64,000 bases of DNA from Alphaproteobacteria bacterium (GCA_015062535.1 SUUK01000001.1:133917-197916), one strand, 5' to 3'; shown: positions 1,476 to 61,028, counted from the stretch's first letter. Notes: a model not told the origin generated them from the letters alone. Numbers and translations are program-made.

Positions 1476-3662
1476 TCACATAAAAGAATAGGGGTTAATA
1501 TCAATATCTACTCTAACATTAGATTTAAGTTTCACCATGCTAAGCCATTTTTTTAGTATTTCTTGGATATTTACATTTTTATGAGTTTTTAACAACAAAC
1601 GATATCTATATCTTCCTCTAAGCAAACTTAAAGGTGCAGGCGCAGGACCATATGTATCAATCATGTCTGTATGAGGTGCGCACTTTCCAAGCATATATGC
1701 AGCAGTTTCTGCAGCTTCATTATTGGTAGAACTAATGATAATTGCAGCTAATTTTCCATAAGGAGGCATTTTAAGCATTTGTCTTGATGACTTTTCTATA
1801 TCAACAAAAGCCTCTCTATCATGTTTTATAACAGCATCTAATATTAAGTTATCCGGATAAAGAGTTTGTAAATAAACAAATCCTTTTTTCTCGCTTCTTC
1901 CAGCACGTCCTGCAACTTGTGATAAAAGTTGAAAAGTTTGCTCAGTTGAGCGCAAATCAGTCCCCATCAAACCAAGGTCAGCATCAATAACTCCAACCAG
2001 TGTTAAATCAGGAAAGTTATGCCCCTTAGCAATAATTTGCGTACCAATAAGAATATCTACTTCTTTGTTGGTAGTTTTTCTAATTACCTCAGATATCTCT
2101 TTATAATTAGTTGTTATATCACTTGATAAAATTTCAACTCTTGCCTCAGGAAAACGATTTTTTACCTCTTCAGCAATTCTTTCAACCCCTGGTCCACAAG
2201 CTGTCAACCCGTCATCAGAAGAACACTCAGGACAACGCTTAGGAGTGTGCATTTTAAATCCGCAATGATGACAAACAAGCTCCCCTGTAATCCTATGTTC
2301 AGCAAGCCAAGCTGTACAATGAGGGCATTGTATTCTATGTCCACAATCTCTACATATAAGCAAAGGCGCATATCCTCTGCGATTTAAAAACAACATAGAT
2401 TGTTCATTCTTTTCCAAATTCTTTTTTAATTCATCAACTAACGTTGGTGCAATAAATGAAACGCCCCAAGGTCCCTTTATCGGTTTGTCTTTTTTTATAT
2501 CTATAATTTTTATCTCTGGGAGTTGTGCTTTAGCATAGCGCTTACGTAACTTTACAATATCATATTTACCTTCTTCAACATTAACAATTGTCTCAAGGTC
2601 AGGTGTTGCCGTTGATAAAATAATCGGAATTTGTTCTAAATGAGCTCTTAAAACAGCCATATCTCGTCCTTGATAAGTAACCAAACTTTCTTGCTTAAAA
2701 GAATGATCATGGCTCTCATCAACAACAATAATTCCTAAGTCCAAATAAGGAAGAAATAGGGCAGACCGTGCTCCTACAATAACTTTAGCTTTATTTTGAA
2801 TAATAGCCTTCCAAGTTTTTGCTTTTTCTTTAACTCCAACTTCTGAATGCCAAATAAATGGAGTTAATCCAAATCTTTTTTCAAATCTTTTTAACCATTG
2901 TGTCGTAAGCGAAATTTCTGGAACCAAAACTAAAACTTGTTTTCCTAAATTCAAAGCCTCTGCAATTGCTTCAAAATAAACCTCAGTCTTACCACTTCCA
3001 GTAACACCATCCAAAAGGGTTGCAGAAAATCCATTATTTACTTTTTTAATTATATTTTCAGAAGCTCTTTGTTGTTCATCAGTTAATTCTACTTGTTTGG
3101 TAAGATTTATAGTTTGTATTTCAGCTTCTTCATTAACAAGTATCTCCTTTTTATAAAGAAAGCCACTTTTTATCATCGCATTGATAACACTATCACTAAC
3201 AGATGTAGCATTAATAATTTCTTCTTTTTCAGCTTCTTTTTTATTTTCTAAAAAATTAAAAACAGCTCTTCTTGCTTCAGTTATACGAATACCTTCAAGG
3301 TTTTCATTTTTAATTTTAAGTCCATATAATAAAACTTTTTGTTTAGGTAATTGATTAGTTTTTTGCCCTAAAACCATCTTTAAAACCATTCCTTTTGTAG
3401 AAAGATTATATGTCGCTGTTTTTTCAATAAAGGAAAATAATTTTTTAGAAATCAAGGGAAGTGCTAAAACCTCTTTTATTGGTTTTATTTTTTTTGTATC
3501 GATATTGGCTGATTTTCCAATTTTATAAACAACGCCAATAAGCTCTTCTCTTCCAAAAGAAACCCTAACCAATTGGCCTATATCAAGTTTATCATCATAG
3601 CTATAGTCAAATACGTCATCAAAATTAAGAGGAAGAAGAACGCCGTAAATAGCCATAAACAT
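1476..3662 (-). CDS. priA: primosomal replication restart helicase PriA
   Basis: PriA is the superfamily 2 DNA helicase that recognises stalled forks and starts primosome assembly. At 728 residues it has family length. The order is an N-terminal 3'-OH-binding region, Walker A GVTGSGKTEVY, a DEAH-like box DESHDHSFKQ, and the zinc-binding cysteines (CRDCGH, CPHC, CHHCGF, CPEC) inserted in the helicase core. The helicase C-terminal motif GTQIIAKGHNFP and QVAGRAGR are intact. Its start overlaps the chpT stop by one base (TAATG), so the two are probably translationally coupled; an ATG two codons later is an alternative start. Confidence 0.97.
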   Translation of the reverse strand: MFMAIYGVLLPLNFDDVFDYSYDDKLDIGQLVRVSFGREELIGVVYKIGKSANIDTKKIKPIKEVLALPLISKKLFSFIEKTATYNLSTKGMVLKMVLGQKTNQLPKQKVLLYGLKIKNENLEGIRITEARRAVFNFLENKKEAEKEEIINATSVSDSVINAMIKSGFLYKKEILVNEEAEIQTINLTKQVELTDEQQRASENIIKKVNNGFSATLLDGVTGSGKTEVYFEAIAEALNLGKQVLVLVPEISLTTQWLKRFEKRFGLTPFIWHSEVGVKEKAKTWKAIIQNKAKVIVGARSALFLPYLDLGIIVVDESHDHSFKQESLVTYQGRDMAVLRAHLEQIPIILSTATPDLETIVNVEEGKYDIVKLRKRYAKAQLPEIKIIDIKKDKPIKGPWGVSFIAPTLVDELKKNLEKNEQSMLFLNRRGYAPLLICRDCGHRIQCPHCTAWLAEHRITGELVCHHCGFKMHTPKRCPECSSDDGLTACGPGVERIAEEVKNRFPEARVEILSSDITTNYKEISEVIRKTTNKEVDILIGTQIIAKGHNFPDLTLVGVIDADLGLMGTDLRSTEQTFQLLSQVAGRAGRSEKKGFVYLQTLYPDNLILDAVIKHDREAFVDIEKSSRQMLKMPPYGKLAAIIISSTNNEAAETAAYMLGKCAPHTDMIDTYGPAPAPLSLLRGRYRYRLLLKTHKNVNIQEILKKWLSMVKLKSNVRVDIDINPYSFM

Positions 3663-4261
3663 TATGCTCCGATAACAAGCTTATTTTCTTTTAGCAAAAC
3701 ATTTACTTTGTTTTTTGATGCATGATTTAATAAATAATATAAAGGAGCATATGAAGAAATGTTTTCACTAACAGTATTATTTGCTAAAATTTGAGATATT
3801 CCTTCCAATTTTGAGTTGTTCAAATTTGCATCAGATGTTACTTCAATTTCTAAAGAAGAGCTTGTTTCATTAACCACAATCTTTCCACCTTTTATAATAA
3901 CATCTGCCATCATCATGATGCTTGGCATAACAAATTTATAAATCATTGGAGTAGAAATATTAATATCTAAATCAATTTTATAATTAGGATTTCCAATAGT
4001 TGATAAATAATCCTTACAAATTTCTTTAAGTTCTTCAATATTTTTTACACTAGCATTAGAAAGTCCAAAACAAAGCCTAAAAAACTTTAATCTTTTACTC
4101 AATACCTTAGAACTAAAATTTAAAATATTATTTACGTCTTCTAAATCTTGTTCATCACCTTCGTTAAGAAGTTCAACAGCATTAGACACAGCTCCAATAT
4201 TTCCAATTAAATCGTGAGATAATCTTGTTGCTATAATTTCAGCTAAAAATGTATTGCTCAT
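3662..4261 (-). CDS. chpT: ChpT-like histidine phosphotransferase
   Basis: The protein resembles ChpT, the alphaproteobacterial phosphotransferase that passes phosphate from the hybrid kinase CckA to CtrA and CpdR. The N-terminal helix carries the phosphoacceptor box RLSHDLIGNIGA with His16, followed by a second dimerisation helix and a degenerate kinase-like ATPase fold. At 199 residues it has the expected length. An AAAGGA ribosome site precedes the ATG. It is cotranscribed with priA, overlapping by one base. The family is essentially confined to Alphaproteobacteria, so this gene is a good marker of the host. Confidence 0.85.
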   Translation of the reverse strand: MSNTFLAEIIATRLSHDLIGNIGAVSNAVELLNEGDEQDLEDVNNILNFSSKVLSKRLKFFRLCFGLSNASVKNIEELKEICKDYLSTIGNPNYKIDLDINISTPMIYKFVMPSIMMMADVIIKGGKIVVNETSSSLEIEVTSDANLNNSKLEGISQILANNTVSENISSYAPLYYLLNHASKNKVNVLLKENKLVIGA

Positions 4262-4276
4262 TTATAAATCCTTTTG

Positions 4277-5209
4277 TTAAAAAGTATAATATTGTGTATT
4301 TGAAAGCCTTGAGTCTTCATTAAACATTCTCGTTGAATCAAGTGATAATAAAAGAGGATCAAATAATTCAAGTTGTCCAGTTTTTGCTTGTAAATATGGT
4401 TTTTTACCGCCCATACCCCATTTAATTTCACTTGCATTATCTGGTTTACCATATTTTAGGTCGATTCTTCTCCAAAAGTCAAAAATCTTAATGTTGTTAA
4501 TATATATATTTTTAGACGCCTTACTTTTAGACATTGGAAGAGTGCTTTTATAAAATACTCTATATGATAAATTATCAGTAAAAGAAGATGAATAATTAAC
4601 CTCAATAGTTTCTCTTGTCGTATAGCGACTATAAATTTGTTTTTCTACAAATTGGTGACCATTTTCTTTTGCAATTTTTGTTGCACAAGCATTTAATCGT
4701 TCAAATCCAACAATGCCATTAATTCTGCATAATTCCTCAGATCTCCATTCAATAAAGTTGGGAATTTCTAAGTTTTCACTAATTTTTCGATATCCTTGCT
4801 TAATAAGAACATCTTCCACCTCTTTAGGTGTCATTCTAAGTCTAACATTAGAAATATCAAAGTAAGCAGCATTTGACTTTTGTTTTTCAATAATTGTTTC
4901 TTTTATTTTTTCTTCAGCTTTTGCATCTTCATCTGTTTTTAAAATTTCTTTTTTCCCATACTTAAATAAGCTTTTTAGCCAACTCTCATTAGCATTTGCA
5001 TTTGGATCAATATTCTCTTTTTTTTCTTCTTTCTTTTCCCCTTTAAGACTGCTAAATAAAGAAGTGGATGGTTTTTCTTCACTAACTGCTTCATTTTTCT
5101 TTTCAAACAATAATAAATCCATCTCCGATTGTGAATAACCAGCCATCGGAAAACAAATTAAACTAAAGCTTAAAAAATAAGCAAATGTTAAGTAGTTGTT
5201 TTTACTCAT
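4277..5209 (-). CDS. exported protein of unknown function
   Basis: I do not recognise the family. The ATG at 5209 gives a clean signal peptide (basic start, then a hydrophobic stretch ending near GYSQS); a GTG six codons upstream would extend the charged end and is less likely. Residues 30-110 are charged and low in complexity, rich in Glu and Lys, like a flexible periplasmic linker. The rest is a folded domain beginning YFDISNVRLRMTPKEVEDVLIKQG, a style seen in small periplasmic GMT/EVE repeat domains. It lies 15 bases upstream of chpT in the same direction, so probably in one transcript. Confidence 0.7.
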   Translation of the reverse strand: MSKNNYLTFAYFLSFSLICFPMAGYSQSEMDLLLFEKKNEAVSEEKPSTSLFSSLKGEKKEEKKENIDPNANANESWLKSLFKYGKKEILKTDEDAKAEEKIKETIIEKQKSNAAYFDISNVRLRMTPKEVEDVLIKQGYRKISENLEIPNFIEWRSEELCRINGIVGFERLNACATKIAKENGHQFVEKQIYSRYTTRETIEVNYSSSFTDNLSYRVFYKSTLPMSKSKASKNIYINNIKIFDFWRRIDLKYGKPDNASEIKWGMGGKKPYLQAKTGQLELFDPLLLSLDSTRMFNEDSRLSNTQYYTF

Positions 5210-5328
5210 ATTACAATTCCAATCCACCTTATTATAACAAAGCTTTTTTAAAAATCATCTAATTTTTAGTATTTACAAACCGAAGATGAGCATTTATAAC
5301 TAAAAAAAATAAATAAAGAGGTTTTATC

Positions 5329-6681
5329 ATGGAATTAAAAGTAAATGTAATAGGGGCAGGATTAGCTGGTTCAGAGGCCGCTTGGCAATTAGCTAAAAGA
5401 GGAATAAGCGTTTCATTATATGATATGAAACCTAAAAAAATGTCAAAAGCCCACAAAAATACATCATTTGCAGAACTGGTGTGTTCAAATTCATTTCGCT
5501 CAGATGATTATAATAACAATGCCGTAGGTCTATTGCATCAAGAAATGCGCATGATGAATTCTCTTATCATGGAAAGCGCTGATTTTAATAAAGTTCCAGC
5601 AGGAGGAGCTCTGGCTGTAGATAGAGATGGTTTTGCAAAATATATCACTGATAAACTAAAATCTCACCCATTAATAACTATATATGAAGAAGAAATAACA
5701 AAGCTTCCTGAGAATAATGATGAAATGTATATAATAGCAACAGGTCCATTAACATCCGATTCTCTGGCTCAAAGTATCTCAGATACAATTGGTGGAGAAA
5801 AGCTTTCCTTTTATGATGCAATAGCTCCAGTTATCTATAAAGATAGCATAGATTTTAGTAAAGCATGGTATCAATCAAGATATGACAAAGGTGATAAATA
5901 TGATTACATTAATTGTCCTTTGTCAAAAGAAGAATATTATAGCTTTATAGATGAATTGTTGACAGGCGAAAAAGTAAAGTTTCATGATTTTGAGGCTCCA
6001 ACTTATTTTGACGGATGTTTGCCAATAGAAGTAATGGCAGAAAGAGGACCTGATACTTTAATGTTTGGTCCGATGAAACCTGTTGGACTAACAAATCCTC
6101 ATAGCACAGAAAAACCATATGCAGTAGTTCAACTCCGTCAAGACAATAAAGAAGATACTCTAAGAAATATGGTAGGATTCCAAACCAAATTAACCTACGG
6201 TGAGCAAACAAGAATATTTAAAAAGATTCCAGGACTAGAAAATGCAGTCTTTGCTCGTCTTGGCGGTATTCATAAAAATACATTTATAAAATCGCCGATT
6301 CTCTTAGATGAGTATTTGCGTTTGAAAAAATCTCCAAATATTATGTTTGCGGGTCAAATAACCGGAACCGAAGGTTATATAGAGAGTGCCTCTATCGGGT
6401 TATTGGCTGGATATTTTGCCTCATGTTTGATAAAAGATGTAAAGCCTCAACTTCCTCCACGAACAACCGCCTTAGGTTGTCAATTGTCACACTTAAAAGA
6501 TGATACAGATATTAAAAATTATCAACCAATGAATATAAACTTTGGGCTTTTCCCAGAAATTCCACCAATAATAACCGAAAAAGGAAAGAAAAAATACCTA
6601 AAAGGTAGCGAAAAGAAAAAAGCCATATCTCAAAGAGCTTTAGAAGATATAAAAGGGTGGTTAGATGTTGCTAAAGTATAA
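5329..6681 (+). CDS. trmFO: folate- and FAD-dependent tRNA (uracil-54-C5)-methyltransferase
   Basis: TrmFO makes ribothymidine at position 54 of the tRNA T-loop using methylene-tetrahydrofolate and FADH2. The FAD-binding glycines GAGLAG are at residues 9-14, followed by [11 protein letters not shown]. The catalytic cysteine context is [14 protein letters not shown], and [27 protein letters not shown] and [10 protein letters not shown] are all typical. At 450 residues it is complete. A ribosome site AAAGAGG precedes the ATG. Its last 17 bases overlap the next gene, suggesting an operon with the two genes downstream. Confidence 0.97.
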
Positions 6682-7408
6682 TGCAAATAACAAGCTCCCA
6701 AAGCTTGGCTTGTATCTAAAAATTATAAATAAAAAAGATAGAAACTTTTTTATCTGTTACTTAGAGTGGATTAGATTACTTTTTATAAGAGGATTTGGTA
6801 TAAAAAATAACTCATCGAAAAATTTTAATTATTTATACAAAGCCGTTTCTAAAAAATGGCCAAAAGATACACTACTTGGGTATCTTCAAGACGAATTTAT
6901 TAAAAGAAATCTATCCTTATCTTTGCTTTTAGAGCCAATAGATGGCTTTTCTTGGATTGCAAAAAATAGATATGAGCTAGATTACATAAAGGCAAGTCCA
7001 ATGTTTTTGCAAATAATTGCTCCCATCTCAAGAATGGTTGCCGTGTTAAATAATTGTAAGCCGCCATTTTACCAGCCGTTTTCAAATTTGCTATTTGCTT
7101 ATTTGTCGCTATATTTGATTTACTCACCAAATCTTGTAAAAATATTTAAAAACAACAAAATATCTATACAATCTAATGTAGTAAATAAAGAACTTCCTCA
7201 CATTTTTAACGAAGCAAAATTTGTAATTCCAACATCAAGCTCGCTATATTTTAAGTTTAAACTAGGTTTTTTCTTAAGCCTATATAGAGTTTTGCTAAAA
7301 AAAGGAACAAAAGAGCTAAAAAAAATAAATTATGTTAACTCATTTTTATATGGTTTGTATTATACTTTAACCATAAAATCTAAAAAAATAAAACTAAATC
7401 AGATATAA
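6665..7408 (+). CDS. unknown protein, possibly a degenerate squalene/phytoene synthase relative
   Basis: The 247-residue product is basic and mostly helical. A central stretch ([25 protein letters not shown], then [20 protein letters not shown]) recalls the helix pattern of squalene/phytoene synthases, the family of the next gene. It lacks the Asp-rich motifs for prenyl diphosphate binding, so I would not predict catalysis. It overlaps the trmFO end by 17 bases and is 15 bases before the synthase-like gene. The gene is real by context and spacing, but the family assignment is weak. Confidence 0.6.
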
Positions 7409-7423
7409 AGTTAGGGAAATCAA

Positions 7424-8266
7424 ATGAGTTCAATTGGACGTATTGTAAGAAAAAATCATTCGGCTGTATTTTGGTGCACAAGGCATTACCCTAAAGCTAA
7501 AAGGGAAGCGGTATATACACTATATGCCCTAGTTAAGCACCTTGATGATTTAAGCTCTAGCAATTTACCTAAAAAGGAAAAAGAAGATATTTTACAAGCA
7601 TGGAGAAGAGAACTTGTAAATATATACGATAAAAAAGTTCCAGAAACAGATATCGGACGTAAAATATATAAAAACTGTATGCGTTTTAAAGTTCCAAGAG
7701 AAAGCCTAAATGCTATAATAGAGGGATTTTCACTTGATTGTCCTGAGCCATTATGCCGTCCAAGTAACGAGAACTTTGAAAAATACTGCTATGGTATAGC
7801 AGAAGTTCCAAGCTTTTTAATCTTAAAAGTTATTGCAGAGTTTGATGAGCCTACAACACAATCTTTAAGTAAAGCCATAGGAAGAGCTGTCGAAATAACA
7901 AATATCTTAAAAAACATAAAGGAAGATATGCTAAATGGTCATATTTATATTCCCAAAGAATATTTAACCCTTGCTCAAATTGATGACAATTTATCCTCAA
8001 AAGATGTTTTAACACATACAAATCTTTATATTGCTCGTCAAAAGTTAGCAGAAATAGCCCGCTCTTCATTTAGAGAAGCATATCGATTATTAGAAGAAAA
8101 TAACAATAAAAATTCAAAGCCTATCGTATATATGCTAAACTTGTATTATAGATATTTTGAATTGATGGATACACGTGGCTGGGAGGTTATTTCTCCAAAA
8201 CCAGTATTAAAAGCAAAAGATAGGTTAATGTTATTAATAAAGGCCTTGTTTTTCCATGGTAATTAA
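7424..8266 (+). CDS. squalene/phytoene synthase family protein
   Basis: A trans-isoprenyl diphosphate synthase-like protein of 280 residues. The N-terminal motif FWCTRHYPKAKREAVYTLYALVKHLDDL corresponds to the family's first aspartate region, here reduced to HLDDLSSS. The second region is better kept: EITNILKNIKEDMLNGHIYIPKEYL matches the LTNxLRDxxEDxxxGRxYLPxE signature. Relatives include HpnC/HpnD for hopanoid squalene and NDUFAF6-like assembly factors; no other hop gene is in the window, so the substrate is open. A strong terminator follows. Confidence 0.8.
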   Translation: MSSIGRIVRKNHSAVFWCTRHYPKAKREAVYTLYALVKHLDDLSSSNLPKKEKEDILQAWRRELVNIYDKKVPETDIGRKIYKNCMRFKVPRESLNAIIEGFSLDCPEPLCRPSNENFEKYCYGIAEVPSFLILKVIAEFDEPTTQSLSKAIGRAVEITNILKNIKEDMLNGHIYIPKEYLTLAQIDDNLSSKDVLTHTNLYIARQKLAEIARSSFREAYRLLEENNNKNSKPIVYMLNLYYRYFELMDTRGWEVISPKPVLKAKDRLMLLIKALFFHGN

Positions 8267-8268
8267 TA

Positions 8269-8304
8269 AAATAAAGAACGCAAATTAGCGTTCTTTATTT
8301 TGAT
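8269..8304 (+). terminator. rho-independent terminator
   Basis: A 13-bp stem (AAATAAAGAACGC with its complement) closes on a six-base loop AAATTA just after the synthase-like gene. Confidence 0.8.
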
Positions 8305-8408
8305 ATTCCCCGTTGATAAGTAATTAAAAAACTTTGCTAATCATCTAAGATAGAATTAACCTCTAAAAAGAACTAAATTTGGACTAACTATCAATTAGGG
8401 TATAAATT

Positions 8409-9284
8409 ATGAAAAATATGAACTTATGTGCATTAGTGTGCACAGCATTGTTAACATCTTTTAGCGCCATGGCAGAAGATACATCTACAGTAGAAGCAAA
8501 AGACTATTCTCTAAAAGCAAACATTAAACGTATTGCTTTAGAATATATGGAACATAGTGTGTCAAATAAAAATGACCCTAATTATCCAGATACTTATAAT
8601 TCTGATGAAAAAAGCAATATTGGTGGCACACTTGATGCTAATATTACATACGATAAGCAAAATATGGTGTGGGTAAATGGCTTGTTTGCAGAATATGCAA
8701 AATCAGAAACAACCGAAGATAACATTACAACAGAAAGTGAAGATAAAGATGAAATCTTGCTTTATACAGACTATACTCATAAAGTATGGAACTTAGAGCA
8801 AGGTGTTGTTGGTCCGTTTGCTTATCTTGGTTATGAAACAGAATTTACTACATTTGACTTAGGTGAAGAAAGTTACAGAACTAAGATTTTACGTGCAAAA
8901 GTTGGTATGAAATTATATGATGGAAAATACTTCAAACAACTCTATATCGCAGCCGTAGAAGAAAACGATATGACCTATGATGATAACAATATGAAAACCG
9001 GTGCAGAAATAGGTTATGAGTTTAATTACCCTCTAAATCCACATACAACATTTATTTCAGAGGGATACTATCGTCAATTCTTTAGCTATTCAGAAAAAGA
9101 ACCAACAGATTTTGAATACAAAATGGCATTTAATAACCGTATTCAAACACAGTTAACCGGAGATTTGTACTTAGCTCCATTCTATAATTATGAGCTAGCA
9201 CAAACAAGAGGCGCAAAAAGCTCTAGAGCACAAAGTACCTTTGGACTTTCTTTAACATATAATAAAAGTTTTGACTTATTTTAG
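8409..9284 (+). CDS. outer-membrane beta-barrel protein
   Basis: A 291-residue exported protein. The signal peptide covers residues 1-22 (LLTSFSAMA then EDTST). The mature part alternates polar and aromatic residues in strands separated by acidic loops (for example YTHKVWNLEQGVVGPFAYLGYETEF, and TGDLYLAPFYNYELA) and ends in a C-terminal Phe, as expected for Bam-dependent barrels. About 12 strands look likely. It resembles small salt-induced or DUF481/DUF3078-like barrels, but I cannot choose a family. The alcohol dehydrogenase gene follows after 8 bases, so they share a transcript. Confidence 0.75.
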   Translation: MKNMNLCALVCTALLTSFSAMAEDTSTVEAKDYSLKANIKRIALEYMEHSVSNKNDPNYPDTYNSDEKSNIGGTLDANITYDKQNMVWVNGLFAEYAKSETTEDNITTESEDKDEILLYTDYTHKVWNLEQGVVGPFAYLGYETEFTTFDLGEESYRTKILRAKVGMKLYDGKYFKQLYIAAVEENDMTYDDNNMKTGAEIGYEFNYPLNPHTTFISEGYYRQFFSYSEKEPTDFEYKMAFNNRIQTQLTGDLYLAPFYNYELAQTRGAKSSRAQSTFGLSLTYNKSFDLF

Positions 9285-14261: not shown

Positions 14262-15671
14262 ATGGAAAAGTATGATTTACATTCCAATAAAGCATCTTGC
14301 TTTATGAACCAACAAAAGGTTGATGAAAATCTTCAAAAAGCAATTTCTTTTTCAAAAGATGATATTTATATAAATGAGGTAATTAAAAAAGCTAAAAGTA
14401 TGCAAGGACTAGAGCCTATCGAGGCAACAGCATTACTTTTAAGCAATGTAGATATAATAGAAATCTATAAGTTAGCTCAAGATATAAAAGATTCTTATTA
14501 TGGCAATCGTATTGTTTTGTTTGCGCCACTATATTTGAGTAATTACTGTGTAAATTCTTGCACATATTGCCCATATCATGTGCTAAATAAAACCATGCCA
14601 AGAAAGAAAATGTCCCAAGATGAAATAAAGAAAGAGGTTATAGCTCTTCAAGATATGGGACATAAAAGAATTGCTTTAGAGCTCGGAGAAGACCCTGTTC
14701 ATAATCCAATAGAGTATGTGCTTGAAAGTATAGATACAATTTATGGAATACATCACAAAAGCGGAGCAATTCGTAGATTAAATGTAAACATAGCTGCAAC
14801 AACAGAAGAAAACTATAAACTTCTGCATACAGCACAAATTGGTACCTATATTTTGTTTCAAGAAACATACAATAAACAAAATTATGAACGTCTTCACCCA
14901 AGAGGTCCAAAACACAACTACGATTACCACACAGAAGCAATGGATAGGGCTATGAGTGCCGGAATCGAAGATGTTGGTCTTGGAGTTCTATTTGGTTTGC
15001 ATAATTATGCATATGAATTTATTGCACTATTAATGCATGCCAAACATCTTGAAGAATTGTATGGGGCAGGTCCTCATACAATAAGTGTGCCTCGTCTTCG
15101 TCCAGCAGATGGAATAGACGTTAGTTCTTTTAAAAATGCTCTTCCTGATGATGTTTTTCTGAAAATTATCGCTCTTTTGCGTATATCTGTCCCATATACA
15201 GGATTAATTATATCAACAAGAGAGAGTAAATCTATTAGAGAAAAAGCCTTAAAGTTAGGTATATCTCAAATAAGCGGTGGTTCTAAAACCTCAGTTGGAG
15301 GTTATTCAACATTAATAGAGCCAGACAATGCCCAATTTGAAATATCTGACAACAGAACACTTGATGAAGTAGTTTATTGGTTGATGGAAAATGGATATAT
15401 TCCTAGTTTTTGCACCTCATGCTATGGTAATAACCGTCAAGGAGTTGATTTTATGGATATTTGTAAAGCAAAGCAGATAGGCCAATTTTGTACTCCAAAC
15501 GCAATTATAACCTTAAAAGAGTACATAAACAACTACGCATCACCAAAAACCAAAGAGCTAGGTAATCAAATGTTACAAAAAGAGCTTGAAAAACTCTCAG
15601 ATAGAAGAAAATCATCTATCATCAAAAGATTAGAGCTATTAAATTCATCTGGAGAAGTCAAATTTTTCTAA
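14262..15671 (+). CDS. hydG: [FeFe]-hydrogenase maturase HydG, radical SAM tyrosine lyase
   Basis: HydG cleaves tyrosine to provide CO and cyanide for the diiron site of [FeFe]-hydrogenases. The radical SAM cysteines are Cys96, Cys100 and Cys103 (CVNSCTYC, CX3CX2C). The C-terminal CX2CX22C motif (Cys384, Cys387, Cys410), which carries the second cluster, is present and separates HydG from ThiH. At 469 residues it is complete. No hydE, hydF or hydA lies in the window, so the hydrogenase must be elsewhere if functional. A terminator follows directly. Confidence 0.93.
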   Translation: MEKYDLHSNKASCFMNQQKVDENLQKAISFSKDDIYINEVIKKAKSMQGLEPIEATALLLSNVDIIEIYKLAQDIKDSYYGNRIVLFAPLYLSNYCVNSCTYCPYHVLNKTMPRKKMSQDEIKKEVIALQDMGHKRIALELGEDPVHNPIEYVLESIDTIYGIHHKSGAIRRLNVNIAATTEENYKLLHTAQIGTYILFQETYNKQNYERLHPRGPKHNYDYHTEAMDRAMSAGIEDVGLGVLFGLHNYAYEFIALLMHAKHLEELYGAGPHTISVPRLRPADGIDVSSFKNALPDDVFLKIIALLRISVPYTGLIISTRESKSIREKALKLGISQISGGSKTSVGGYSTLIEPDNAQFEISDNRTLDEVVYWLMENGYIPSFCTSCYGNNRQGVDFMDICKAKQIGQFCTPNAIITLKEYINNYASPKTKELGNQMLQKELEKLSDRRKSSIIKRLELLNSSGEVKFF

Positions 15672-15676
15672 AAAAG

Positions 15677-15716
15677 TCCCTTTACACAAAATAGTGTAGG
15701 GGGATTTTTTTTTATT
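15677..15716 (+). terminator. hydG terminator
   Basis: An 11-bp stem (TCCCTTTACAC against GTGTAGGGGGA, two G-U pairs) is followed by nine T residues. Confidence 0.8.
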
Positions 15717-15727
15717 TATTTTTTTTG

Positions 15728-15758
15728 TTGACAAAAAAGACTGAATATGATAATTTTG
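15728..15758 (+). promoter_or_regulatory. Bacteroidota-type promoter upstream of the 15.8-kb gene
   Basis: TTG at 15728-15730 and TAATTTTG at 15751-15758 are 20 bases apart. This matches the Bacteroidota sigma-ABfr layout (TTG, 19-21 bases, TAnnTTTG). An overlapping sigma-70 reading (TTGACA with a poor -10) is possible. Confidence 0.5.
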
Positions 15759-15805
15759 TGTCGATAATCAGAATAATTATGTAAAATTTAAAAAATATAT
15801 AAGTT

Positions 15806-16564
15806 ATGTTAACAAGAATTTGTATGGGTATTGCAAATAGCGATAACCCCCTAGTATCCAAGCTAGGAGAGAGTGTAATCAATCGTATGATTGATAATTT
15901 GGAAAATAAAGAAACCGAAAAAAAACTTTCTGAGTATATCAAGAGACATCAATTAGACGGTGCTCTTATAACGAAAATACTCATAAAGGTAAAGGACGAA
16001 AGTTTCTTCCATTTCATGCAAGAGGTGGTTCGAACGCAAAAGTTAAATGACTACCATCAGGAGCTATTAGCCTCAAAAAACAATGTCTTGCTAATGGAAA
16101 CTTATCTTGCACCTGAAGGTTTCTTAGAGCCATCCAAAAGACTGTCAAGAAAAGCCGAATTCATCTACATCTCTGGAATGATAGAAAAAAAGTCAATGGT
16201 CGGAATTGAATTATTAAAGACCTATATCGACAATTTCAAAAGAGATATTTTAACAGATGAACTCTTAGAGGTCGCCTTAAAAAATGATTGCATTGCGTCA
16301 AGATATCTTCTTCTGCGCGCATTCTTAAGTGAAACGCAGGAAATTTATCTGATAAAGAGTATGTCATTGGAAATGCTCAAGGATTACATTGAAGGTAAAC
16401 CTATCTATCAAGAAGGAGCTCAAATAGTTCTTGTGGAGAATTTTTATGAGCTATCTAAAAGACATCAAGAGCAATATGGCTTACAGCCTAAAGCCTTGCA
16501 GTTGTATCATTCAAAGAGAAAGGTAGAGATTCAAAACCGGCATCCGCGTTCGACAGTGCCTTAG
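15806..16564 (+). CDS. helical protein of unknown function, probable import
   Basis: I do not recognise this 252-residue protein. It looks all-alpha, with repeated helix pairs (for example LLASKNNVLLMETYL and FLSETQEIYLIKSMSLEMLKDYI) like HEAT-type solenoids, and resembles in style the protein at 20275-21603. It has no signal peptide or membrane segment. The leader before the ATG is A/T only with no SD, and the coding sequence uses more G and C at third positions than neighbours such as hydG. Together with the promoter type this suggests transfer from Bacteroidota. It is monocistronic between two terminators. Confidence 0.75.
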   Translation: MLTRICMGIANSDNPLVSKLGESVINRMIDNLENKETEKKLSEYIKRHQLDGALITKILIKVKDESFFHFMQEVVRTQKLNDYHQELLASKNNVLLMETYLAPEGFLEPSKRLSRKAEFIYISGMIEKKSMVGIELLKTYIDNFKRDILTDELLEVALKNDCIASRYLLLRAFLSETQEIYLIKSMSLEMLKDYIEGKPIYQEGAQIVLVENFYELSKRHQEQYGLQPKALQLYHSKRKVEIQNRHPRSTVP

Positions 16565-54611: not shown

Positions 54612-57600
54612 ATGTCTATTATTGATTTATCAAAAAGAAATGAAGAAGCAAAGATTTATCATATAAAAGAAATTACTGAACGTAACCTTAACAAAATACG
54701 TATATCTTTCTCAAAAGCATTTTTAAATCAAAATTTTAGAGAAAATTTAAAAATAGAAGAAATTAATAAATTTTTTGATGAATTAAAAAAAGAATTTGAT
54801 ACATCTAATGAATTAGATGTTTTTGCCTCCCATCAAGAAAACTTTGAGCATTTCTTAAAAACGGGTGATATAAAAACTCCGTTAAGTTTAAAAGATGAAA
54901 AATCGCAACTTTACTGGGGTATTGCACTTGGTTATTTAGCAGCACATCCTGAAATTCAACAATCTTGGGACCCAAAACATTATTTTGGACGTATGTCTCA
55001 ATCAACCCTGTGGAAGAGAATAGAAAACTCCTCATATATGCAAAAAGAATTAAAAAAACATGCATATATAATAAAAAGAAGTGTGGATAATCCCGAAACA
55101 AAAATTATGTGGTCAGAAATGGGGTATCCAAACATCAGTTACTGTTATGATAGATCTGAAAATGTTATCATTGATGACATGTTGTGGACATTGGTTTGCG
55201 GAACAGATGCCGCAGCAACAGCAATAAACCACGAAATTGCTCACTCTCAAGGAACACAATTTGTAGAAACCCCAAAAATGCTACAAATCAAAAAAGAACA
55301 AGAAGATTTAGTAAAAGAATTAGATGAAAAAAGTAAAGCAAAAGATGATGAAGGCTGGTTAAAAGCCGCAAAACAAGCAGAAAGAAAAAGAATAGAATAT
55401 CAATATCGCTTTAGATTTTTAGATGAATTAGAAAATATGTTTGCCAATAGATTTTCTGTAAATTTTGGCGGAAACTATGATAAAGCACATTTAAACGAGC
55501 TAGAAACCGTAATTAATTTAGGTGAGAAGTTCTTAACATCTAAAACCTTAAAAGAAGCAAGAGAAGAATTAGATGCATCAGCAGAAAAAAGAGTTCAGCA
55601 TGTAAAAGATATTGCACGAAATACTTTTTTTATGAATAACAATATTTTAAATAATGAAAAAGAGCTTCATTCTTTACATCTATATCCAGAACTTTTAGAT
55701 GGGCGTGATGAAAAAGGTGTGAAAATGGGGGCTGCAGAAGCTTTTGATAGAATAAAGGAAATTTGTCTCAAATTTGAAGAAAAACAGCCAAGTTTTATCT
55801 TAAAAGAGAGTAACCCTGGTCTTTATGCACTACGTATGTCTATGCTAAGTAAAGAACGTTGCAAGCTCGTAGATGAGTTTTTTGATATGTTTGTAGCTCA
55901 TCATATGGAAGAAATATATCAAAAAGCTGAAAATAAGGTAGAACAAAGTCTACAAGAAGCAAAAGAAAATCAACAAAATAGTCAAAGCACCCAAGGGCAA
56001 GGACAAAGTAGGGAGCAAAGTCAAAACGAGCAAAACCAAAGTCAAGGCCAAGGTCAAGGGCAAGGACAAAGTGGGGAGCAAAGTCAAAACGAGCAAAACC
56101 AAAGTCAAGGACAAGGTCAAGGGCAAAGTGGGGAGCAAAGTCAAAACGAGCAAAACCAAAGTCAAGGCCAAGGACAAGGTCAAGGGCAAAGTGGGGAGCG
56201 AAGTCAAAACGAGCAAAACCAAAGTCAAGGCCAAGGTCAAGGGCAAGGACAAAGTGGGGAGCAAAGTCAAAACGAGCAAAACCAAAGTCAAGGCCAAGGC
56301 CAAGGACAGAGCCAAAACGAGCAAGGAGAGGGGCAAGATCAAAGTTCCCAAGGGCAAGGACAAAGTGGGGAGCAAAGTCAAAGCGAGCAAAGAGATGGTC
56401 AAGGTCAAAGCCAAACTCAAGGAAACGATGGAAATTCTCAAAGTCAAGGAAGTTCTAGTCAAGGAAGCGACGGAAATTCTCAAGGGCAAAGCCAAGGTCA
56501 AGGACAAAATGGTCAATCTCAAGAAAGAGGGAGCTCTTCATCACCAAATTCTAGTAGCATAGACCCTAATAATATTGATGAAAATGGATACCCTTCAAGT
56601 GAGCAGTTTAAAATTGAACAAAATAAAAAACCTGGAGAAGGTGAATTAACAAGTGAACAAAAAAAGCAAGTAGGCGACAAAGCCTCTAATGTTGATGAAT
56701 TAGCAAAAGAAGCTGAAGAAACACTCTCTAAAGAAGAGTTACCTGAAAGAGAAAATGAAAATAATAAAAAACAAAGATCAGAGAAAACAACAGGTAGAAC
56801 TATGAGTCTAGAAGAATATCTTGCTGAATCTGAACAAAACAAAATGACAGCATCAAACATTGGTAAACCATCATATGGAGGTTCATCTGTTGGAAGAGAA
56901 TTGTATAAAGGTACTTATGACAAGTATATGGAGCGTATTGATCCATTTGCAGAGGATATAGCAAAAGTTAGACTTTTAATCGAAAAATTAATAACTCAAA
57001 AGAAATTAGATAGCTTAAAACAAGGTAAACAGCAAATAAAAAAAGTAAAGACGTTAACTCCAGAGCAGGGCGCAAGTACTCTAGATGTTAGAGCTCATAT
57101 AAATTTAATGAAAAAAATGAGAACAGGAGATCCAAGCCTAAATATAGACGATTTTAATCGTTTCAAAAGTAAAAGAAAATATAGCAAAGATGAGTTAATT
57201 GAAAAAGTAGAGCTTCAAGAAAGTAATATCGTAATTTTGCTAGATGATTCCGGTTCTATGTATGGTGCTCCTTTCCAAAGTGCATTAAATACAGCATGCA
57301 TACTTTATGAAGCCTCAAGAAAAATAAAAGAAGTAAATGTATTTGTATATGCTATGGGAGACAGCTATCATTCAGATGCTCTTCCTATTGCAATTCCAGG
57401 AATGACAACCAAACAAATTGCTGAGAATTTAGATTCAATAGGCTCTAGTGGTTGTAATGACTCAATTTTCCCAGCCTTAGAAATGGGACTAAAAGATGTA
57501 ACCGACCATATGGCTAAAAAACCATCAGATATATGTGGGTTTACTCATATATTTGCATTAACCGATGGTTATAATGGAGACTATACATATAGAGATGGTG

Positions 57601-57914
57601 ATAAGTGTTTAGAAATTTTACTAAATGGCAATCCTCAATTAACTATTGATTTCTTCTTTACAGGAACAAATGATAATAATTATATGCGAAGTTTCCTTAA
57701 TAAGAAAAAAGCCGAAGGTTCAACACAAATAGATAGCGTTGAGGGGATATTTGCAGACAATAAACCTTTGGGTGAAAAAATTTCTGAAATTTTATTAAAA
57801 AGAATGCAAGTAAGTAAAGTAAAAGAACCTCAAACCAACGAACTTAAGCAAAAATTAATAAAAGATAGTGTACAACAAATGTCAAAGGTAGAAAGGACAG
57901 GACATTTTTACTAA
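54612..57914 (+). CDS. zincin and VWA domain protein with a Gln/Gly/Ser repeat linker
   Basis: A 1100-residue cytoplasmic protein without a signal peptide. Residues 1-450 are helical and hold a zinc-peptidase-like motif INHEIAHSQG (His207, Glu208, His211) with a possible third ligand in LDELENMFANRF. Residues 455-650 are repeats of Gln, Gly, Ser and Asn-Glu. Residues 860-1075 are a VWA domain of CobT type with an intact MIDAS, DDSGSM (Asp878, Ser880, Ser882), and ALTDGYNGDYTY. The MoxR-like ATPase gene lies 68 bases downstream, so this is probably its VWA partner. The zincin-VWA fusion is one I do not know by name. Magnesium or zinc insertion into a client is inference. Confidence 0.85.
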   Translation: MSIIDLSKRNEEAKIYHIKEITERNLNKIRISFSKAFLNQNFRENLKIEEINKFFDELKKEFDTSNELDVFASHQENFEHFLKTGDIKTPLSLKDEKSQLYWGIALGYLAAHPEIQQSWDPKHYFGRMSQSTLWKRIENSSYMQKELKKHAYIIKRSVDNPETKIMWSEMGYPNISYCYDRSENVIIDDMLWTLVCGTDAAATAINHEIAHSQGTQFVETPKMLQIKKEQEDLVKELDEKSKAKDDEGWLKAAKQAERKRIEYQYRFRFLDELENMFANRFSVNFGGNYDKAHLNELETVINLGEKFLTSKTLKEAREELDASAEKRVQHVKDIARNTFFMNNNILNNEKELHSLHLYPELLDGRDEKGVKMGAAEAFDRIKEICLKFEEKQPSFILKESNPGLYALRMSMLSKERCKLVDEFFDMFVAHHMEEIYQKAENKVEQSLQEAKENQQNSQSTQGQGQSREQSQNEQNQSQGQGQGQGQSGEQSQNEQNQSQGQGQGQSGEQSQNEQNQSQGQGQGQGQSGERSQNEQNQSQGQGQGQGQSGEQSQNEQNQSQGQGQGQSQNEQGEGQDQSSQGQGQSGEQSQSEQRDGQGQSQTQGNDGNSQSQGSSSQGSDGNSQGQSQGQGQNGQSQERGSSSSPNSSSIDPNNIDENGYPSSEQFKIEQNKKPGEGELTSEQKKQVGDKASNVDELAKEAEETLSKEELPERENENNKKQRSEKTTGRTMSLEEYLAESEQNKMTASNIGKPSYGGSSVGRELYKGTYDKYMERIDPFAEDIAKVRLLIEKLITQKKLDSLKQGKQQIKKVKTLTPEQGASTLDVRAHINLMKKMRTGDPSLNIDDFNRFKSKRKYSKDELIEKVELQESNIVILLDDSGSMYGAPFQSALNTACILYEASRKIKEVNVFVYAMGDSYHSDALPIAIPGMTTKQIAENLDSIGSSGCNDSIFPALEMGLKDVTDHMAKKPSDICGFTHIFALTDGYNGDYTYRDGDKCLEILLNGNPQLTIDFFFTGTNDNNYMRSFLNKKKAEGSTQIDSVEGIFADNKPLGEKISEILLKRMQVSKVKEPQTNELKQKLIKDSVQQMSKVERTGHFY
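55976..56560 (+). repeat. Gln/Gly/Ser-rich coding repeat
   Basis: About six copies of a roughly 60-bp unit (related to GGGCAAGGACAAAGTGGGGAG plus AGTCAAAACGAGCAAAACC) code for blocks of QGQGQSGEQSQNEQNQS. Lengths vary through gain or loss of CAAGGN hexamers. It is clearly richer in G and C than the flanking gene, and prone to length change. Confidence 0.9.
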
Positions 57915-57922
57915 TAAATTTA

Positions 57923-57951
57923 TTGTATAAAGCAAAATTTTATGATAAAAT
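57923..57951 (+). promoter_or_regulatory. promoter of the MoxR-like ATPase gene
   Basis: TTGTAT at 57923-57928 and TAAAAT at 57946-57951 are 17 bases apart in the 68-base gap, so this gene can be read apart from the VWA gene. Confidence 0.5.
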
Positions 57952-57982
57952 AAAGATAATATAAGAAAAAAAGGAGAGAGCA

Positions 57983-60676
57983 ATGAGTAATGTATATCTA
58001 CACAAAATAGGAACAAAAAAGTATCCAATTCCTGTAGGTTTTAAAAAAGAAGTAGAAAAAGGCCTTGATGGAAAAGAACGTGAAGTTATAAAGGTAAAGT
58101 GGCTCGCTGATGATAAAAAACCTCTATATGTTCCTACAATGCGAGAGGATACAACAGAGCAAATTTACGGTAGATTTATAAGAGAAGTTGTGTCAGACCC
58201 AAACCTTTTACCTGATATGGTGGAAATTATGACAAGGTTGGATGAACGAAGAACACCTGCTAAAACTAAGAGTTATGCATATACTACAATTGGTGCTCCA
58301 GGTAATGGTAAAACATATTTAATGAAAGCATTTGGACGCTTACTTCATGAAAAGGGTGCGATAGTTCTTGAATGTAAAAACTTAAAAGACCCTGAACAAG
58401 TATATAAAAGAACTGAAATTGGTGTAAATAAAGTTGCAAAGAAAAATAAAATTGATGCTCACCTTAAATATTTACACAAAACAGGTAGTGAATTATCTTC
58501 AGAATCATTAGCATATCTTGTAAATGCACTAGGTGTGGATAGCCAAGGTGATAGTGTTGTTTCTCAAGAAAAAAGAGACAATGGTAAAACTCGCATTTCA
58601 ATAGACTGGGCATCAATTAACGAATCTCCAGACTATATTGAAATGATTTGCGATAAATTTATGGCAATGGAAGGCATTACCTATGATAAAGATAGCTCTA
58701 ATTCAATTGGTATTGGTACATCAAATGGCCCATTAATTAATGCCTTAGATCCAGATCATCCAGACTTTGGACGTATAGTTCTTCTTGATGAGTATAACAG
58801 ACTTCCAGAAGGTGAAGGGTTGCTTTCTGTTGAGGCATTTATGTCAGAGGCAGGAGCTGATAGATTAAAACTATCAGGTGGTGATGATAAAGAATATACT
58901 TTTGAAAGAAGTGCAATTCCTCAAACATTTATGTATCTTGCAACAGGTAACCAAGCACAAGATAATATGGGTATGAGCGCAAGGGAAGATAGTCTTCCAG
59001 AGCTTTCTCGTAAAGGTTCTGGTATTGATATAAGAACAATATCTAACCCTCAAAAAGAAGACTTTATCTCAAGAACATTAAAGCACTTTACTGGCGTTCC
59101 TACATATTATATTCATATGCTAAACTCAGAGGCTTATGAAACAAACCCATCAAAACTAAGTGCTAAAGTTAAATATTTTAGAGAAGTTGGTTTAACAGAA
59201 GAAGAAAAGAAAGAAATTCCTGCAGAAGAAAAATTTAACATCAAGCATATCGATAGAACCGTAAAAACAGGAATTGCAGTAGGATCTTTATTGTATGAAG
59301 CAGATCAATTAATTCAAACAATGGCAGAAGATGAAAGTTTAGCATCAGGTTATACTAATTATCTATCTAAAAAAGCTCTTGTCGATTTGCGTTATATCTT
59401 TAAGTTATATCAACATTCAAAAATTGATAAAATAGAAGGATCTTCGGATGAGGCTGTTTTAGATAGTCTTGGTATTGGCGAAGAGGATATGTCAGACTTT
59501 GATGTAAAATCAGAGCAAGAAAAAGCTATCAAAACTATGGATAGGGCAAAAGCTCTAACTAAAGGTACAGATTTTGGACAAGAAATTTTAAGCAAATTAC
59601 ATGAAATGTTCTATCCAGCGGATTTAAGCGAAAAATTAAAAGGCGCAGCTAATAAAGAAGATACTGTTCAAAAAATAGATGAAGCATGGTCTCAATTTAT
59701 AGAAATAGCTAAAGGTCTTAAATTTGAATTTGCAGGCTATCATGGAAAAGATAGTGTTGAAGATACATTCAATGCTAAACCAGAAGATTTTCCAGATCAC
59801 GCATTAAGTGGTGTAAAATCTGTGCTTATAGAATCAATTAATGATGAATATAACCAAAATTATTCAATGTCAGACGTAATTGATGATGAAGCATTGGATT
59901 TAGCCTTAAAATCTTTGGCAAATGATGATGATTTAAGTGGAATGATTGCCGTTCCAAACTTCAATACAGATTATCAAAGCGAAGATAATTTAATTGAAAA
60001 ACCGATAAAAAGGTTAGTAATTGAACAAAAAGATGGTATTGATGAAGACAAACGTGAAGAGCTAGTTACAGTTCGTGAGTTTATGTCATCATTAATGATT
60101 AAGCAAACCAGAGATTTTAATGTTAAAAAACTTAGTAAAGAGAGTGTTCCTGATACAGCTAAAGCTCTTTGCACAGATAAAGATGCTCTTGCTATAGCAA
60201 ATGGTAGTCATGAGAGATATTTTGTTACAACAGTTGCTCTAAATGATATAGATAATCAAAAAGTAGGGCTTGCCCACGTATTCTTTGATAAGGACACTCA
60301 AAGAACATTAATGTTAACAGACTTTAGTGTGAAGCAAAGCGACTTAGAACGTCTACAAAAAAATGATATAACATTTGTAAATATTAATGAAATTAAACAA
60401 ACATCTGAAGCAAATGCTATTGCAGATAGCCTACTTAGCTCTATGGATTGCAAAGGAAAAGGCAGTATTGTTAGTAGCTTAGTTAATGCATCATTAATGA
60501 GGATTTCACCAGAATCAATGGTAACAGTGCCAGAATCTTCTGTAGCGCCATTCATTGATTTTGCTCTTAAACCAAAATGTATAGATGAAGAATCAAGAAA
60601 ACAAATAAAATGTATTCATCTAACCAAAAAAGAGTATCAATATGTTCAAACAAAAACAAATGACCAAGGGAGATAG
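57983..60676 (+). CDS. MoxR-like AAA+ ATPase
   Basis: An 897-residue ATPase. Walker A is GAPGNGKT (104-111), Walker B is RIVLLDEYNRLPEGEG (Asp269, Glu270; the DExNR form is the MoxR signature), and the sensor 1 region is FMYLATGNQAQDNMG. The arginine finger region DSLPELSRKGSGIDI follows. After the AAA lid, residues 400-897 are an extended helical C-terminal part of unknown fold. MoxR ATPases pair with VWA proteins (RavA-ViaA, CoxD-CoxE) to remodel or insert metal into clients. AAAGGAGA precedes the start, and the small gene next door starts 3 bases after its stop. Confidence 0.9.
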   Translation: MSNVYLHKIGTKKYPIPVGFKKEVEKGLDGKEREVIKVKWLADDKKPLYVPTMREDTTEQIYGRFIREVVSDPNLLPDMVEIMTRLDERRTPAKTKSYAYTTIGAPGNGKTYLMKAFGRLLHEKGAIVLECKNLKDPEQVYKRTEIGVNKVAKKNKIDAHLKYLHKTGSELSSESLAYLVNALGVDSQGDSVVSQEKRDNGKTRISIDWASINESPDYIEMICDKFMAMEGITYDKDSSNSIGIGTSNGPLINALDPDHPDFGRIVLLDEYNRLPEGEGLLSVEAFMSEAGADRLKLSGGDDKEYTFERSAIPQTFMYLATGNQAQDNMGMSAREDSLPELSRKGSGIDIRTISNPQKEDFISRTLKHFTGVPTYYIHMLNSEAYETNPSKLSAKVKYFREVGLTEEEKKEIPAEEKFNIKHIDRTVKTGIAVGSLLYEADQLIQTMAEDESLASGYTNYLSKKALVDLRYIFKLYQHSKIDKIEGSSDEAVLDSLGIGEEDMSDFDVKSEQEKAIKTMDRAKALTKGTDFGQEILSKLHEMFYPADLSEKLKGAANKEDTVQKIDEAWSQFIEIAKGLKFEFAGYHGKDSVEDTFNAKPEDFPDHALSGVKSVLIESINDEYNQNYSMSDVIDDEALDLALKSLANDDDLSGMIAVPNFNTDYQSEDNLIEKPIKRLVIEQKDGIDEDKREELVTVREFMSSLMIKQTRDFNVKKLSKESVPDTAKALCTDKDALAIANGSHERYFVTTVALNDIDNQKVGLAHVFFDKDTQRTLMLTDFSVKQSDLERLQKNDITFVNINEIKQTSEANAIADSLLSSMDCKGKGSIVSSLVNASLMRISPESMVTVPESSVAPFIDFALKPKCIDEESRKQIKCIHLTKKEYQYVQTKTNDQGR

Positions 60677-60679
60677 ATT

Positions 60680-60991
60680 ATGGAAAAACGTTTTAATAGA
60701 GATGAAATAGAGACTATTATGCTACAAACAGTAATGGCTCGCCCACATAGCATTGTACATGAGTATAAAATCTATCATGTTGCAAATAAAGTAGAAGAAG
60801 AGGTTATAAAAAACATCAAAGGCTATAAAGAAGCAACATCTCTAACAGAGCTTGAAGAAGCTGTAAATGATAAAGATGTTAAAGGAGTATTTATTCCAGA
60901 ATATGCATCTATAACATCTCAAGGTATAAAATCTGTCTTAAATAGAACCTCATTATTAAAAAACATTTATTGCGCCTTTGAATTGCAATAA
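60680..60991 (+). CDS. small acidic protein of the MoxR operon
   Basis: A 103-residue soluble protein, mixed alpha-beta (ETIMLQTVMARPHSIVHEYKIYHV, VKGVFIPEYASITSQGIKSVL), with no recognised family. It starts three bases after the ATPase stop, behind AAGGGAG, and ends at a terminator, so it is the last gene of that transcript. Its strict coupling suggests a structural or adaptor role with the ATPase. Confidence 0.75.
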   Translation: MEKRFNRDEIETIMLQTVMARPHSIVHEYKIYHVANKVEEEVIKNIKGYKEATSLTELEEAVNDKDVKGVFIPEYASITSQGIKSVLNRTSLLKNIYCAFELQ

Positions 60992-61000
60992 TATACAAAA

Positions 61001-61028
61001 AAAAGCTGGGATTTCCCAGCTTTTTTTA
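61001..61028. terminator. bidirectional terminator
   Basis: A perfect 12-bp stem AAAAAGCTGGGA / TCCCAGCTTTTT with a two-base loop ends the MoxR operon and the converging gene. Confidence 0.9.

Follow-up and report, generated by a model that had tools for sequence, protein, structure and literature searches.

The window analyzed, a stretch of 64,000 nucleotides on contig C14 of a 1.73-Mb genome (G000) placed in the Alphaproteobacteria by the records for its relatives, contains a unit of three co-directional genes on the plus strand at positions 54612-60991. The first gene (54612-57914) encodes a 1100-amino acid protein with a zincin-linker-VWA arrangement, a putative MoxR cofactor for which relatives were found. 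The second (57983-60676) encodes a MoxR-like AAA+ ATPase of 897 amino acids with a long C-terminal extension, and the third (60680-60991), placed 3 bases further on, encodes a protein of 103 amino acids. A terminator scan located a bidirectional intrinsic-terminator-like hairpin at the 3' end of the unit (60998-61027), beginning 7 bases past the third gene, and found no plus-strand terminator inside the unit, so that the three genes likely form one transcript. The open reading frames, HEIAH motif, linker repeat and MIDAS motif of an earlier, preliminary description made from this DNA are borne out by the ORF calls and alignments, and the zincin and MIDAS motifs exceed chance, being conserved across relatives.

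Residues 1-446 of the first protein (54612-55949) are predicted to form a mostly helical domain with a gluzincin-like core (AlphaFold2 model, pLDDT 91.8, pTM 0.87). In the model, strands 164-168, 178-180 and 185-189 come before helix 198-214, which carries the HEIAH motif (residues 207-211; 55230-55244), and the next helix, a long one spanning residues 246-308, bears Glu-274 (55431-55433), the candidate third zinc ligand. Strands leading into an HExxH helix, with a glutamate on the next long helix, are the gluzincin layout. The zincin alignment of 15 sequences (18-59% identity to the window protein) has only 21 invariant columns, among them His-207, Glu-208, His-211, Glu-274, Asn-279 and Arg-280, and the signature of an HExxH helix and a glutamate on the following helix is present and invariant throughout, with both parts on predicted helices. 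Loss of HExxH in orthologues, raised in the preliminary description as a ground for refuting its reading, is not seen; all relatives whose sequence covers the region retain the motif. The structural matches of the model are weak. Selecase (PDB code 4qhi), a minigluzincin, matches in the fold of the catalytic core (105/108 residues over model residues 141-304, Z 4.7, rmsd 3.6), with no sequence similarity found and with the difference that selecase stands alone, and IRAP, another gluzincin, gives Z 4.4; a Foldseek search of the model against the PDB and BFVD returned no match under E 0.001. On its motifs and predicted fold, the N-terminal domain is probably of the gluzincin type, a putative metallopeptidase that may bind zinc and cleave protein substrates.

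The zincin-like domain is followed by a low-complexity Gln/Ser/Gly linker of about 315 residues (55950-56891). The repeat described earlier is a real tandem array in the window (63-bp unit, 5.1 copies, 91% matches, 55992-56305) but is not conserved in relatives, whose linkers keep the length and differ in sequence and composition, being rich in D/N/Q, G/K/D or D/G/K as against Q/S/G in the window. The VWA region (residues 763-1090; 56898-57881) includes the segment preceding the first VWA strand and is supported by Pfam VWA_2, which matches 8/9 members (best E 2.2e-7), and by alignment to the VWA profile of DUF2201. The MIDAS motif DxSxS lies at D878-D-S880-G-S882 (57243-57257), and Asp-878, Ser-880 and Ser-882 are unchanging in 14/14 aligned sequences. 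Judged by MIDAS and profile, the VWA domain is of the standard type. Among PDB sequences CobT ranks first against the VWA profile, with a short and non-significant match (E 0.056) that sets DNSGSMRGRP against DGSGSMxGxP, and the CobT_C Pfam score of the window protein is below the cut-off.

In the ATPase, the Walker A motif GAPGNGKT (residues 104-111; 58292-58315) and the Walker B motif VLLDEYNR (residues 266-273; 58778-58801), which has the MoxR-like DExN form, are well defined in an alignment of 13 sequences, with Gly-104, Pro-106, Gly-109, Lys-110, Asp-269, Glu-270 and Asn-272 all invariant, as are the sensor-1 asparagine Asn-323 and the arginine finger Arg-343. The model of the ATPase is only moderate (pLDDT 74.8, pTM 0.58). 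Its best structural match is NorQ (239/256 residues, Z 12.5, rmsd 4.0); CbbQ follows with Z 11.5, both rank above ClpA, McrB and dynein, and the eight best matches are all NorQ or CbbQ chains (Z 10.9-12.5). Because the model matches NorQ and CbbQ best, a MoxR-like assignment of the ATPase core is supported, and the MoxR label first given to this gene stands. Sequence profiles barely recognize the protein, the best values among members being 1.1e-4 for AAA_22 and 0.0013 for AAA_5; the E of 0.17 for the window ATPase against Pfam AAA_5 falls short of a library cut-off, which is not a biological feature. The C-terminal extension of ~300 residues makes up the C-terminal third of the protein.

The 103-residue protein has no convincing match in Pfam, PHROGs, NCBIfam, the PDB or PADLOC and by sequence is a new family. 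A duplicate of the C-terminal domain of the ATPase was considered and rejected by direct comparison. A role as adaptor or small subunit is likely, given a gene found 3' of the ATPase in 14/15 readable loci, separated by 1-12 bases or overlapping by 1 base where the spacing was measured. The only exception is locus L033, which has no recognizable small gene and a shortened ATPase frame; L025 stops within the ATPase. The small gene was recovered by reading the frame in L011 and L013, where a longer ORF on the opposite strand masks it, and was identified by direct reading in L034.

The ATPase is present in 8/18 genomes of the window's genus, its own genome included, and a ninth member (G009) has the zincin-VWA gene, interrupted by the contig end. 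None of the other genera of the family that were searched has the ATPase, and no match besides the own genome was obtained in 398 Pseudomonadota genomes. A class-wide profile search found relatives in 5/385 alphaproteobacterial genomes, from five genera, and the three-gene unit is rare among Alphaproteobacteria. Scanning the contigs of a genome collection with the zincin alignment yielded 14 loci, every one of them belonging to uncultured Alphaproteobacteria; several come from the gut or faeces of animals, and the name of one isolate refers to Loclat. Searches of 50,697 phage records, plasmids and viral contigs found no relative.

The three genes are co-inherited and conserved. The zincin-VWA gene adjoins every ATPase relative whose surroundings are readable, the pair in G035 being divided over two contigs, and the order zincin-VWA, ATPase, small protein is identical in every genus locus that could be read, in G035 and in L024, L026, L029, L032 and L034. 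Genomes of the genus have either the whole unit, at a single chromosomal site, or none of it. In members lacking it, TrkH and a PMT-like gene are followed directly by c14 or a lipoprotein-like gene; clean empty sites of this kind occur in G002, G005, G013, G014 and G017, G012 has a similar site with TrkH alone and no PMT gene, and G007, in which the contig ends there, is left out of the comparison. Empty sites in these genomes and intact units elsewhere indicate that the three genes are gained and lost jointly at a single position. Co-occurrence of the three genes in related genomes had been proposed as a check on the unit, and it is found; the scattering of partner genes named there as a refutation is absent.

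Group 2.2 jumbo phages are reported to encode, next to a MoxR ATPase, a vWA protein with a metallopeptidase joined to its N-terminus (PMC7824862), and the earlier suggestion of an undescribed system is only partly right. The pair was located in jumbo phage Atu_ph07 (ASV44728/ASV44729) and corresponds to DUF2201_N plus DUF2201 (PF13203 plus PF09967); relatives of the pair are present in 676 phage records, and bacterial DUF2201 versions also adjoin MoxR genes. As in the unit, an N-terminal HExxH domain and a C-terminal VWA are encoded next to a MoxR-like ATPase. Profile comparisons run beside an unrelated control align the VWA (E 1.9e-4) and the ATPase (E 4.8e-4), the latter from Walker B to the SR region. 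The zincin domain, in contrast, has no PF13203 match. PF13203 and PF09967 gave no match to the window protein up to E 1 and none among nine members at 0.1, a genome search with PF13203 gave no match in G000 or G035, and hhalign of the zincin against DUF2201_N covers 16 columns only, with a probability of 1.3%. The segment from HExxH to the third motif is much longer than in DUF2201 (63 residues, from His-211 to Glu-274), and further differences are the long low-complexity linker, the size of the ATPase (897 residues compared with about 420) and the extra small gene. Membership of the zincin domain in DUF2201 was rejected on the missing Pfam match and the 16-column alignment, the VWA and ATPase aligning remotely. 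The peptidase-VWA plus MoxR design is therefore known, and the lineage described here is a separate, divergent cellular variant; what is new is this lineage and its third protein.

Built on the genes, domains, conserved motifs, modeled MoxR-like fold and co-inheritance described above, the reading somewhat favored here is that the three genes encode a single ATP-driven client-remodeling machine with a zinc peptidase on its VWA arm. The 897-residue protein would form a MoxR-type AAA+ ring, and the 1100-residue protein would be its cofactor, its VWA part docking on the ring and its zinc-peptidase-like domain held out on a long, flexible arm; the 103-residue protein would be a small subunit or adaptor that the machine always requires. 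ATP hydrolysis would turn or pull the VWA arm, moving the tethered zincin relative to a bound client that is thereby remodeled and presented to it, and the zincin may cut the client in a limited way or grip it via the zinc site. In NorQD a finger of the VWA enters the ring pore, the final residues of NorD dock on the ATPase, whose activity remodels the linker joining the VWA to the N-domain (PMC13036017); such docking and linker remodeling fits the zincin-linker-VWA architecture here. MoxR-VWA pairs are widespread, but only in a few is it understood how ring force is passed on to a client. If the proposed machine exists, a catalytic domain on the VWA arm would make cleavage a direct readout of ring force and MoxR machines could be proteolytic, not only chaperones, with a small obligatory partner that is absent from the named MoxR-VWA pairs.

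An alternative reading is a metal-insertion or enzyme-maturation chaperone like NorQD, CoxDE or CobST, with a zinc site that serves to bind or hand over metal, or to hold the client, and does not cut. NorQ-NorD and CbbQ-CbbO share with the unit the MoxR ATPase fold (Z 11-12.5), being nearest to the modeled ATPase, and a VWA cofactor with N-domain and linker, and the general layout of NorD is likewise an N-domain, a long linker and a VWA. CobS-CobT has the order N-domain, low-complexity linker and VWA, and CobT is the best-ranked, if non-significant, PDB match of the VWA profile. The unit differs from NorQ-NorD and CbbQ-CbbO in its zincin N-domain, the C-terminally extended ATPase and the third small gene, and from CobS-CobT in the HExxH of the N-domain. 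HExxH combined with a glutamate on the next helix is typical of hydrolases and is not known from NorD or CobT. In the loci examined, no metalloenzyme gene, NOR and Rubisco genes included, was recognized next to the unit, and CobN was not recognized in the gene neighborhoods read. A non-cutting chaperone is judged unlikely.

For the client-remodeling machine, proteins with LRR-, ankyrin- or HEAT-like repeats encoded nearby would be candidate clients or client selectors. Outside the genus, LRR-like genes come right after the unit in L024 (2495-6748) and L034 (14671-16248), homologues of the L024 genes lie downstream of it in L029 and L032, and an ankyrin-like gene with a weak match follows it directly in L017 (4369-5322). 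The idea is weak, because in the genus of the window the unit has no LRR or ankyrin neighbor and is followed by other genes. Downstream of the unit, five genus loci have the uncharacterized c15 and/or c9 (c15 is not called in L011). Full-length c9 is found only in unit-bearing genomes; c9 and c15 are both missing from the window's genome and were not counted as core members, and c12 and c14 were rejected as fourth members, as they occur in genomes lacking the unit.

A C-terminal arginine, often as GR, ends 33/48 genes in or adjoining the unit, many of them orthologues and not independent, compared with 15/154 other ORFs of the same loci. In the window (57983-60676) and in L010-L017, L024, L029 and L032 it is found in the ATPases, most zincin-VWA proteins, the LRR-like proteins and c9; the small proteins lack it, as does the window's own zincin-VWA protein, and the c14 family, unlinked to the unit, also frequently has an arginine at or near the end. 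One reading of the shared arginine is a docking tail. The fuller proposal, a distinct cellular MoxR machine with a tethered gluzincin and a 103-residue adaptor that chooses LRR- or HEAT-like clients via this tail, is quite doubtful.

Other genes near the unit include, in L026, a second putative metallopeptidase downstream (14680-15831, DUF6782, E 2e-17) and a divergent OLD/GajA-like gene of the ATPase-TOPRIM type upstream (4566-6431), and, in L033, upstream genes (1670-8587) that resemble a serine recombinase, a repressor and Fic. The surroundings of L033 and its shortened ATPase frame suggest an integrated element.

A conflict or defense system, with repeat proteins as sensors of an invader and the zincin as effector, would follow a logic akin to that of the MoxR-vWA ternary (VMAP) systems (Kaur et al. 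2020; PMC7159879), in which MoxR and vWA are likewise joined by a conserved third protein. The patchy, all-or-none occurrence of the unit, the LRR or ankyrin-like neighbors outside the genus, and the OLD/GajA-like gene at one locus and the Fic gene, scoring as SoFic, at another are consistent with this. The third protein here is different, however, with 103 residues and no known-family match, the VWA has no variable effector domain, and no trypsin- or caspase-like component was seen with the unit. PADLOC families match none of the three proteins, which also lack a match to VMAP-type models in the Pfam, NCBIfam and PADLOC libraries, and within the genus the location of the unit is fixed. A defense role is improbable. 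A domesticated phage module for virion assembly, the function proposed for the jumbo-phage pair, would explain the shared domain order of the phage DUF2201 pairs and the serine recombinase and phage-like genes near L033, but is highly improbable; a phage origin was rejected on the lack of relatives in the phage records, plasmids and viral contigs searched, no structural phage genes were recognized beside the window copy, and the zincin hardly aligns with DUF2201_N.

Elsewhere in the window, the RNase E gene (48366-51035, minus strand) carries a Cys-rich insert of CxC repeats at about residues 111-280. The insert is metallothionein-like, with 28 Cys in 170 residues, and inserts with other repeats occur in the RNase E of L010 (18 Cys), L016 (16 Cys) and L087 (20 Cys).
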